A program made the position numbers and the translations under genes. This document shows positions 3,472 through 18,078 of a stretch of DNA of 30,672 nucleotides, piece after piece. The notes beneath the pieces are model-generated. The model had not been told where the DNA came from. It did not search any database and saw only the letters and a program-made list of their open reading frames with translations. The DNA comes from a virus, in IMG/VR virus record IMGVR_UViG_3300046794_000204, positions 1-30,672 of that record; one strand, written 5' to 3'. Each line of letters opens with the position of its first letter. The first letter of the stretch is position 1.

Positions 3472-3714
3472 ATGGATAAGCGCGAAGTCAGAATTTCACA
3501 AAGCGGGTTTGCGCGTATGCAGGAAACCCTGCTCCGGTCGGAGTGTGAGGGTTACGGCCCTGATGCCTGCGCGGCCCACGCGCTGCATAGCGTTGGGCTA
3601 GGTGCCAAGCCGGGAGTTGAAACCGTGCTGATTGTGGACCCCACCCTTGACGGACCAATCTACCCGTTCATGGAATGGCCCGCCGAACTCCGGGCTAAGT
3701 CCGGTCATCAGTAG
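3472..3714 (+). CDS. Hypothetical small protein, 80 residues
   Basis: The ATG at 3472 follows AAGGAGAG (3458-3465) with a six-base gap, so I prefer it to the longer upstream frame that begins inside the previous gene. The protein is acidic to neutral, with two cysteines close together (C24 and C32), a helical N-terminal half, and a proline-rich C-terminal half around PTLDGPIYPFMEWP. No catalytic motif, membrane segment or known domain is apparent. It belongs to the early-side cluster of small + strand genes after the primase. The leader GGAGAGCGAAACAATG is nearly repeated before the next gene at 3725. Confidence 0.7.
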   Translation: MDKREVRISQSGFARMQETLLRSECEGYGPDACAAHALHSVGLGAKPGVETVLIVDPTLDGPIYPFMEWPAELRAKSGHQ

Positions 3715-15744: not shown

Positions 15745-15772
15745 AAAGAGAGAAGCGGGGCCGAAGCCCCGC
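15745..15772 (-). terminator. Intrinsic terminator after the capsid gene
   Basis: In the transcript direction the sequence is GCGGGGC, loop TTCG, GCCCCGC (7 bp, 15772-15755), followed by TTCTCTCTTT. A UUCG-capped GC stem followed by a T-rich run is a classical rho-independent terminator. It lies about 11 nt after the capsid stop. No promoter is obvious before the next gene, so it probably attenuates rather than blocks transcription. Confidence 0.8.
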
Positions 15773-15783
15773 CGGATTGTTCG

Positions 15784-17136
15784 TTATCCGAAGGTGGTCG
15801 AGAAGGCCGACAATGATTCGATCCGCATGAAGAATTGTTGATTCTGAATCAATGTTCCATAGAAAACCTTCCAACCAACAACTCTTAGCTGATTCAGGGG
15901 ATCGGACTTGTCAGCTTCCTTCAGGTAAGTGAAGCGCGCATCGTCGAGCATGACCTGACCGTAAGCGCCGCGCCCGAAGATGTAGGTCGGGTACACAGTG
16001 AGGCCGGTCGCCGGCGGGGCGGGCGGGGTCTGCGCGGTGCCGATGCCCGTGATGATCACGGTCTGGCCGCCAGCCATCTGCGTCGCCTGGCCCGCTGCCG
16101 GACCAACGGTCGGTCCCGCGGCGGAGAGACCGAGGTTGGCAACCGCAGCCGCGGTGCCGGTGCCGATGTAGACGCTGAAGGTGTAACCGGGGAGCGACGG
16201 CAGCACCACGGAGATCGAGCCGTTCGGGCCGGTGACCGAGAGCGCGCCCGAGGCCTGGTAGATCTGGCTCTCGAACTGGTTCTGGGTATCGGACGCCGTG
16301 ACCTTGATGAAGTAGTTGGCGTTGGTCGCCAGCGCGCCGGCGGTGCCCGGGGTGCCGGTGATCTGGGCGATGCCGGTCCAGGTGGGGACCATGTTGCTCA
16401 GACAGAATCGGATGCCGCCCCACTCACCAGCCTCGTAGTTGTAGAGGCGGTTGATATCCGAGTAGGACCAAGCAGTTACAACCGTGGAGTTCTCGCGGAA
16501 GTCCTGCGCCACCAGCGGATGCATGATCGCCGCATAGTGCGGCATCGCGCGCGGATTGCTGGATGCCTTGGCGCCGCCGGCGTTGACCTCCAGCTTGGTG
16601 TCGGTCATCTCGTCGCCCATGTAGCGCGGGACTCCGAGGGTGTTGAGGATGCCGTAGGCCCGATTGATCTCGTGCGGGTTGATGACGTCGCCGGCCACCA
16701 GAGAGGCGCGGGCGCCGCGCGAGTTGACGTAATTGACCTGAGTGCCTGAGTTCAAGGTGTTGAAAGTGTTGCGTTCCAGGGTCTCGGCGATCTGGAGGGC
16801 CACCAGCTCGGTGGCCTTGACGAACAGCGGATGCTTGATCGTCATCTCGGCCACGTCAGTGATGGTGACCTTGTCGCCCCATTGCTGAGCAACTGCCGAG
16901 ACCTGCTGAATGGTCATGTTCTGCCCGATGGGCGGCACGCCTTCCGAGAGCGGCGCGAAGGGCAGCGGAACTCGGAGGTATCGGGTTGCCGTGTAGGTGG
17001 TGCCGCGCCCTTTGGGGAGGCGGAGGGGGTCGCCAAACTGGTAGGCGACGAGCTGCTTGCGGGCGAGGGGGAGGGTTTTGTCCGCGATATAGTTTTCGAT
17101 ATCGGCGGAAAAAGAGGCAGCTACGTTCGTTGCCAT
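15784..17136 (-). CDS. Major capsid protein, N4-gp56 family
   Basis: The product forms the head shell. It contains the family signature PLSEGVPPIGQNMTI (62-76), then VAQQWGDKVTITDVAEMTIK (82-101), and LERNTFNTLNSGTQVNYVN (120-138), typical of N4-gp56-like HK97-fold capsid proteins. AGGAGA lies eight bases before ATG 17136. About 120 residues (roughly 254-378), Gly/Thr/Ala-rich and beta, interrupt the region between the central fold and the conserved end. Residues 379-450 (VYPTYIFGRGAYGQVMLDDA) look like the conserved C-terminal part. The extra segment may be an Ig-like surface domain. It sits between scaffold and terminator. Confidence 0.9.
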   Translation of the reverse strand: MATNVAASFSADIENYIADKTLPLARKQLVAYQFGDPLRLPKGRGTTYTATRYLRVPLPFAPLSEGVPPIGQNMTIQQVSAVAQQWGDKVTITDVAEMTIKHPLFVKATELVALQIAETLERNTFNTLNSGTQVNYVNSRGARASLVAGDVINPHEINRAYGILNTLGVPRYMGDEMTDTKLEVNAGGAKASSNPRAMPHYAAIMHPLVAQDFRENSTVVTAWSYSDINRLYNYEAGEWGGIRFCLSNMVPTWTGIAQITGTPGTAGALATNANYFIKVTASDTQNQFESQIYQASGALSVTGPNGSISVVLPSLPGYTFSVYIGTGTAAAVANLGLSAAGPTVGPAAGQATQMAGGQTVIITGIGTAQTPPAPPATGLTVYPTYIFGRGAYGQVMLDDARFTYLKEADKSDPLNQLRVVGWKVFYGTLIQNQQFFMRIESLSAFSTTFG

Positions 17137-17178: not shown

Positions 17179-17949
17179 TTAAATTGGCACGTTCAGCAGC
17201 CGGCTCTCCGGGCTGTCTCCCTGCTTCCCGCGCGCGGTAGCAGTATCTCCTCTGGCCGGCGCCGACCGAACCTGCTGGTTCGCGATCCGCTGCTGGCCCT
17301 CTTTCCTTGCCTTAGGCGCCGCTTTCGTTGCCGCCGCGCGCGCCGCGCGCCCGATCGCCAGGTCCAGCAGAACTTCCCGCGGTACAAAGACACCGCGATC
17401 TTCCTGCTCCTTCCGGATCTTCTCGACTTCCGAGTCGTACTTCTTCAGGTGCGGTGCGTCGCGCAAGATGCTGTTATACATCAACTTGTCGCTCGCTTCC
17501 TGCTGCTGGATGGCCTGCTGGCGGAGCAATGCTGCAGTGCGCTGCTCCGAGTCCTTCAGGTCTTCCCGCATCACTTCCATCGGGTCCATGAGCGCACGGC
17601 GCGCTGCACGGGTCTCTGCACTCTCTCCCTGGGGCTGCTGACGGGCGCGCTGCTCAGCGCGGAGCTCCATCAGCTCCCGGTCAATTCTCTGCCGCTCCGC
17701 CTTCTCCTGCGCGAGCGTCTGGGTAAGGGACTGGATGCGCGATTGCGCCCGATTGGGCCGCCGCGCCGGAGGTTCGTCGTCTACCGACCCCTCGTCGTCC
17801 CCTTCCGAACCTTCGGTTTCATCCGCCCCTTCGTCAGCGGAGGCATCTTGTTCCCCTGCTTCGAGGCCGTCATCCCCTTCTTGCCCTTGGGTATCGTTGT
17901 CTTCGACATGCTGATCTTCCCCTTCGATCGGCTCTCTCGGATCTGCCAT
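17179..17949 (-). CDS. Capsid scaffolding protein
   Basis: I use ATG 17949 because it follows AGGAG by six bases; the same frame starts at 17979 but lacks such a site. The 256-residue product has a very acidic N-terminal 60 residues (Asp/Glu-rich). A coiled coil at about 70-105 (IQSLTQTLAQEKAERQRIDR and following) leads to a helical middle. The C-terminal part is basic and Ala/Arg/Lys-rich (RKEGQQRIANQQVRS). Acidic start, coiled coil, basic end and position directly before the capsid gene are typical of scaffolding proteins, which guide shell assembly and leave the head. Confidence 0.82.
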   Translation of the reverse strand: MADPREPIEGEDQHVEDNDTQGQEGDDGLEAGEQDASADEGADETEGSEGDDEGSVDDEPPARRPNRAQSRIQSLTQTLAQEKAERQRIDRELMELRAEQRARQQPQGESAETRAARRALMDPMEVMREDLKDSEQRTAALLRQQAIQQQEASDKLMYNSILRDAPHLKKYDSEVEKIRKEQEDRGVFVPREVLLDLAIGRAARAAATKAAPKARKEGQQRIANQQVRSAPARGDTATARGKQGDSPESRLLNVPI

Positions 17950-17963
17950 TCTACTCTCCTTCG

Positions 17964-18027
17964 GTGGGCTTACGGCCACTAGTCGGCAGCACCTTCCGGG
18001 TGCAAGTCGGCAGCTGCTTACGGCAGC
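17964..18027 (-). repeat. Three tandem 15-16 nt hairpins in the scaffold leader
   Basis: In the transcript direction there are three hairpins: GCTGC-CGTAA-GCAGC (18027-18013), GCACC-CGGAA-GGTGC (18003-17989) and GTGGC-CGTAA-GCCCAC (17979-17964, one extra C). They are separated by TGCCGACTT and TGCCGACTA. The period is 24 nt. Stem bases differ but pairing is kept, and loops have the form CGNAA. The third hairpin ends three bases before AGGAG of the scaffold gene. Size is close to lambda-type boxB (15 nt, 5-bp stem, 5-nt loop), though the loop sequence differs. Confidence 0.7.
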
Positions 18028-18051
18028 AACTCGAAACTAAGTTGCGCGGAG

Positions 18052-18078
18052 ACTATGTTACGGGAACTATTATGTCAA
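18052..18078 (-). promoter_or_regulatory. Candidate sigma70-like promoter for scaffold-capsid
   Basis: On the - strand TTGACA (18078-18073) matches the -35 consensus exactly. CATAGT (18057-18052) matches 4 of 6 of the -10 after a short 15-nt spacer. A second -10-like CATAAT overlaps the -35. The predicted transcript would begin near 18045 and carry the hairpin array before the scaffold start. The short spacer lowers confidence. Confidence 0.4.

Follow-up and report, generated by a model that had tools for sequence, protein, structure and literature searches.

The window analysed here, a tailed-phage fragment of 30.7 kb (30,672 nucleotides in full), carries its structural genes on the minus strand. 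Inspection of the sequence indicated that three hairpins on this strand occupy the leader that runs from a sigma-70-like promoter to the ribosome binding site (RBS) of a putative scaffold gene. The features of the locus, in the direction of transcription, are:

29806-27812, minus strand: terminase
27852-25645, minus strand: connector/portal-like protein
18073..18078, minus strand: predicted -35 element of the scaffold promoter, TTGACA, from the sequence
18050..18055, minus strand: probable -10 element, TAGTCT, with a 17-nt spacer, from the sequence
18013..18033, minus strand: unit 1, linker CGAGTT and hairpin GCTGC-CGTAA-GCAGC (18027-18013)
17989..18009, minus strand: unit 2, linker CGACTT and hairpin GCACC-CGGAA-GGTGC (18003-17989)
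17964..17985, minus strand: unit 3, linker CGACTA and hairpin GTGGC-CGTAA-GC(C)CAC (17979-17964), with one unpaired C
17956..17961, minus strand: RBS of the scaffold gene, AAGGAG, from the sequence
17179..17949, minus strand: putative scaffold gene, 256 amino acids, named from its place directly before the major capsid gene and from its composition
15784..17136, minus strand: major capsid protein (MCP), 450 amino acids, matching phrog_1357 (major head protein, E 3.7e-33)
15754..15773, minus strand: terminator-like hairpin directly 3' of the MCP gene, 8 bp, 7 of them G-C, with a T-rich tail

The putative scaffold protein, which has an acidic N-terminus and a conserved basic C-terminal stretch of about 60 amino acids, had no match in Pfam or PHROG, so that its name is taken from position and composition. 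A perfect TTGACA is present in 30 of the 48 relatives' leaders that were scored; the promoter of the window was not among the matches of a strict scan that demanded 9 of 12 letters with fixed -10 letters, and transcription is predicted to start at about 18042-18044. The terminator-like hairpin probably delimits the scaffold-MCP cassette, and similar features distal to the MCP gene were found in 20 of 68 relatives. Since the array is preceded by a promoter-like pair and the MCP gene is followed by this hairpin, the array would be the leader of a predicted scaffold-MCP transcript. At ten loci (L004, L006, L013, L015, L018, L056, L067, L068, L070 and L088), a similar reverse-strand sequence that resembles the end of a homing-endonuclease-type gene lies directly after the MCP stop codon.

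The array had originally been predicted as three hairpins with a period of 24 nt at 17964-18027, and this description is correct, with the minus strand as the strand concerned. Their loops are CGTAA, CGGAA and CGTAA, respectively, the hairpins are separated by the linkers TGCCGACTT and TGCCGACTA, a partial linker (CGAGTT) lies 5' of hairpin 1, and a gap of only 2-3 nt separates hairpin 3 from AAGGAG. R1, a covariance model of the unit, matched unit 1 at 18009-18036 (33 bits, E 2.3e-6), unit 2 at 17985-18012 (30.7 bits, E 9.2e-6) and unit 3 at 17960-17988 (19.3 bits, E 0.006); the unpaired C of hairpin 3 recurs, bulged in the same way, in about ten relatives. When the leader of the window was folded alone, its stability was the same as that of shuffled sequences (z = 0.05), and thus folding energy alone could not reveal the array, whereas the comparative evidence does; the stability of the whole leader was therefore dropped as evidence. 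Within hairpin 3, a GTG at 17979 (minus strand) shares the reading frame of the scaffold gene and lies 10 codons before its ATG (17949), and the same GTGGCCGTAAG is kept in many relatives; this GTG has no Shine-Dalgarno (SD) motif and is probably just part of the stem.

Relatives of the phage were represented by 80 loci with an MCP relative of 69-98% identity, and from one to three units precede the scaffold gene in nearly all of those whose region is preserved. Among 50 distinct leaders, one unit was found in 12, two in 18, three in 19 and an apparent four in 1, the extra match in the last case lying 98 nt upstream. The units are mostly spaced by 23-27 nt, and in the same 50 leaders the end of the -10 element mostly lies 7-16 nt before the first CGA, while 0-6 nt separate the last 5-bp stem from the SD motif. 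R1 was run on 30 records, 28 of which have the array at the scaffold locus, with weaker or chance matches elsewhere; in two bacterial assemblies of this survey only some of the candidates were scored. BLASTN of the array region against phage records gave no match.

For an unbiased view of pairing, every CGA-N8-CGKWA in the leader zone near a scaffold start was collected and pairing was ignored in the selection. In the 52 distinct stems obtained in this way, 85.8% of the positions are paired and 35 stems are fully paired, compared with 57% of positions and an average of 3.9 fully paired stems (maximum 11) in 2000 shuffles; away from the scaffold start, stems chosen by the same flanking letters gave 34.5% paired positions and not a single fully paired stem among 33. 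A separate count of full pairing yielded 70 of 106 near the scaffold gene versus 2 of 319 elsewhere. In an alignment of 76 units, which is biased in that the units were picked partly by pairing, double-sided changes occur at 6 of the 7 pairs and the covariation is 0.79 versus 0.28 after shuffling. The units chosen by flanking letters in relatives' leaders contain 33 GU pairs versus 7 A-C mismatches, and this excess argues that the scaffold mRNA is the functional strand. In 16 leaders folded whole, alternative pairings between the copies were predicted, with a median stem probability of 0.37. On the comparative evidence, a conserved RNA element almost certainly exists: the differing yet pairing stems of the original prediction recur as compensatory change across the 76 units and about 50 leaders, and the RNA function proposed from them is supported by this change together with the GU excess on the scaffold mRNA strand.

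Loss of pairing in relatives with the same gene order would have counted against this function, and nearly all of these relatives do pair; the exceptions are L060, L063 and L047, where the arrays are degenerate, and L027/G008 (76% MCP identity), which has the promoter, the scaffold gene and the core genes but no hairpin array (best R1 E 0.19) and is a natural negative. A search for a trans factor missing from the array-less G008 found none. No array was seen in MW202637 and OR838459 (L085, L086), whose MCPs are distant relatives.

The unit is bipartite and consists of a single-stranded CGACU followed by a hairpin of 5-7 bp with a CGNWA loop, the consensus being Y-CGAC-U-N-GYNNN-CGUAA-NNNRC. 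The CG of the linker lies 11 nt before the loop; it should be noted that this CG and the CG of the loop were selection criteria, so that their invariance is partly by construction. The loop letters are C-G-[U>G>A,C]-[A>U]-A, with T at position 4 in 12 of the 76 relatives' units, and the closing pair may be C-G, G-C, A-U or U-A. The combination of variable stems with a fixed linker and loop suggests that some factor reads the single-stranded letters.

The element is not confined to the relatives of the window phage. When viral contigs were scanned for CGACTNGYNNCCGTAAGNNRC alone, a pattern whose four NN positions are free, at least 120 stretches matched, and among the matches listed 96 of 104 distinct ones are fully paired. 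A scrambled-loop control returned 45 stretches (6 of 32 paired) and a scrambled-linker control 26 (1 of 17 paired). The rarity of pairing in these controls indicates that linker and loop belong together and that the element exists outside the group of array phages. Among the matches listed, tandem arrays lie before scaffold-like genes, and single units occur at 86 loci, for 43 of which the downstream gene was assigned: an SNF2-type helicase follows at 27 loci, and other units precede DNA polymerases A and B, SSB, nucleases and three further capsid families (P22-type coat, Phage_capsid_2 and Phage_capsid_3). In L096, L116, L136, L145 and Bordetella phage PHB04, about 6-12 nt lie between the hairpin and the start of a tRNA, and a tRNA-like sequence follows the unit in L161. 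PHB04 is an isolated phage (L383, MF663786, 2893-3093), and its perfect unit ends about 9 nt before tRNA-Pro. Usually one site is present per genome (25 contigs searched whole), and many of the single units lie within operons, between genes. When the pattern was given a CGGAA loop, paired matches came mainly from scaffold arrays, and the remaining ones, in coding sequence, are probably due to chance. R1 had no match in six isolates whose helicase or capsid relates them to single-unit phages.

Among known RNA elements, the families of Rfam 15 had no match in the window at their gathering thresholds, none in the leader at E <= 5 and nothing over the unit in the single-unit loci that were scanned. 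The array resembles mini-ykkC (the guanidine-II riboswitch) in having near-identical tandem hairpins, two in mini-ykkC, with short conserved loops and variable stems; however, the loop of mini-ykkC is ACGR instead of CGNWA, it lacks a conserved CGACU, its genes are unrelated and there is no Rfam match. With the boxB/nut sites of lambdoid phages the unit shares a small hairpin in a phage transcript and a pentaloop whose letters are read above a variable stem, but the boxB loop is GNRNA, boxB/nut sites lie in early operons, and the array comprises up to three tandem copies at a scaffold gene; inspection of the leader at 17956-18044 revealed no boxA (CGCTCTT-like), and no N-like protein was found. 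The operators of RNA-phage coat proteins (MS2, PP7, Q-beta) are likewise hairpins adjoining the RBS of a structural-gene operon, whereas the array is tandem, lies upstream of the SD motif, has a conserved linker and another loop, and belongs to a double-stranded DNA phage. The levivirus hallmarks, namely a hairpin carrying the start codon, a bulged A and an ANYA-type loop, were not found, and a bulged A is absent from most units. The view that the loop differs from those of boxB and of coat-protein operators thus holds for the CGNWA loops of the relatives as well.

The scaffolding protein of P22 has long been described to control its own synthesis post-transcriptionally, and P22 shares the order of scaffold before coat gene; the tandem arrays were found before an ORF with an acidic N-terminus that precedes a phrog_1357 MCP, or before a similar gene. 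We know of no RNA element of this kind in P22, and, in contrast to P22, the unit also occurs at unrelated genes and tRNAs. The putL site of HK022 lies just downstream of its promoter and comprises about 70 nt with two stem-loops in a V-shaped arrangement (PMC9378689). The array would share with put the position of cis-acting RNA hairpins at the start of a transcript, immediately downstream of a promoter that is predicted in the present case, and a protein-independent action like that of put is possible; put is, however, one two-stem RNA, and HK022 (AF069308) gave no match to R1. A resemblance to group I introns or HDV-like RNAs, mimicry of an anticodon loop and CsrA (GGA) sites were dropped, the defining letters being missing. 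No description of the motif was found in the openly accessible literature; few subscription papers were covered, and it could still be described. As judged from its sequence, the array would behave like a cis-regulatory phage hairpin and fits none of the boxB, put and coat-operator families.

The reading that we favour, with a probability of roughly 0.4, is that the unit is a general cis-acting RNA element that controls processing or stability and that the scaffold arrays are its multi-copy leader form. The array would then be the 5' leader of the scaffold-capsid mRNA, composed of one to three bipartite units, and the letters of linker and loop would be recognised by an activity that binds or processes RNA and that infected cells have in common; it would more likely be host-derived than scaffold-specific. 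Its target would be the RNA preceding the unit, or else it would leave a transcript that starts with the hairpin; the downstream RNA would thereby be matured or protected, or possibly elongation would be affected. Serial copies before the first RBS of a promoter-scaffold-MCP(-terminator) cassette would result in high and long-lived expression of scaffold and capsid. Several points speak against this reading: protection of a 5' end alone needs no conserved loop, L027/G008 keeps its core genes without an array, the copies within a leader are predicted to pair with one another in alternative ways, and the single units of other phages, which lie in larger structures, may serve another purpose. In 299 Pseudomonadota genomes, only 2 matches were found, probably by chance; the units are thus essentially absent there, and the factor would not be one that reads a common host leader like the array.

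By analogy with the P22 scaffolding protein and with RNA-phage coat proteins, for which such repression has long been described, the array could instead be a translational operator at which scaffold, coat or a dedicated phage RNA-binding protein, when in excess, represses scaffold-capsid translation. The stem end 0-6 nt before the SD motif, where a bound protein would block initiation, the multiple sites, which would suit cooperative binding, the location of the array at the scaffold locus in the array phages and the basic C-terminus of the scaffold protein are all in keeping with this mechanism. However, coat binding accounts for that C-terminus, as it does in other scaffold proteins, and the unit precedes capsid, replication and tRNA genes that have no protein product in common, each of which would need the same evolved specificity. 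These contexts, and foremost the tRNA genes, weaken a scaffold- or coat-specific operator and favour a general element. The suggestion that the array might bind a phage protein or regulate scaffold and capsid specifically is not supported as it stands: single units lie before different genes and before tRNAs in unrelated phages, and tblastn detected no phage protein common to seven single-unit phages and the array phages, although a small, fast-evolving RNA-binding protein could escape such a search. We regard the operator as a real but less likely alternative. Antitermination of the put or nut type, in which the nascent hairpins would load onto RNA polymerase and make it resist downstream pausing or terminators, appears slightly less likely still. 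Like HK022 putL, which lies just downstream of its promoter (PMC9378689), the array starts close to where transcription is predicted to begin, terminator-like hairpins follow the MCP gene in the window and in the 20 of 68 relatives, and single units before untranslated tRNA genes would fit; yet HK022 gave no R1 match, no boxA-like sequence is apparent, many single units lie inside operons, and a conserved downstream terminator is not general.

A leader that acts through structure alone, with hairpins ordering the 5' end and the RBS region for stability or ribosome standby and with no specific partner, is improbable. It would account for a strong promoter followed by a short hairpin-built leader ending at the RBS, for freely varying stems and for a copy number between 1 and 3, but not for a CGACU linker and a CGNWA loop that are invariant and common to unrelated phages, nor for scrambled linker or loop patterns that form hairpins no more often than chance. 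Operators often take the form of inverted repeats beside a promoter, and the array is promoter-proximal; nevertheless, an operator in double-stranded DNA, or a chance repeat, is very improbable. Here the arms vary while loop and flank are fixed, which is the opposite of a palindromic operator, the compensatory changes and the excess of GU over AC on the mRNA strand contradict it, and chance is excluded by the 35 of 52 fully paired stems versus shuffles and by the contrast near and away from the scaffold gene. The broader claim that CGACU with the CGUAA hairpin is an undescribed module of many unrelated phages, placed directly before major capsid, DNA-replication and tRNA genes, recognised by a single activity shared by infected cells (processing, protection or elongation) and present at scaffold genes in multi-copy form, comes close to an even chance.

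Scaffold and coat proteins are needed in high, balanced amounts, and little has been described of how tailed phages achieve this at the RNA level. The array is a compact leader element conserved across a phage group (dozens of related soil phages), and with its short exact motif the element can be located in other phages upstream of capsid, polymerase and tRNA genes. Should one and the same factor read the unit, it would offer a common handle on late or replicative gene expression of phages.

The replication module of the array phages (G001 40364-41899, minus strand, and relatives) consists of an SNF2 helicase, a small nuclease-like ORF and a DUF927 primase-like protein, and is 24-39% related to that of the single-unit phage G044, in which a single unit precedes the helicase gene; R1 found no unit upstream of the helicase of the array phages. 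In PHB04, about 170 nt further on from the unit, a block of about 84 nt shares 92% identity with the surroundings of the unit in L188; the block contains a degenerate unit, CGATTGGCCCCCGTTAACAGG, and a permuted tmRNA (RF04321) lies 3' of it at 3526.

A larger structure is common to about half of the single-unit loci: in it, UAAC..CA is followed by a covarying stem directly before CGACU and then by the hairpin, and single-copy elements within such structures may have a role other than that of the array. This larger RNA was seen at L106, L126, L139, L152, L160, L167, L169, L137, L140 and others, where genes for SNF2 helicase, DNA polymerase and nuclease lie downstream, and had no Rfam match in the loci scanned. 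At these loci it comprises UAACC..CAG and the covarying stem P1, with variants such as GTCAAGC/GCTTGAC, GCTAGG/CCTAGC and GTTAGGA/TCCTAAC.
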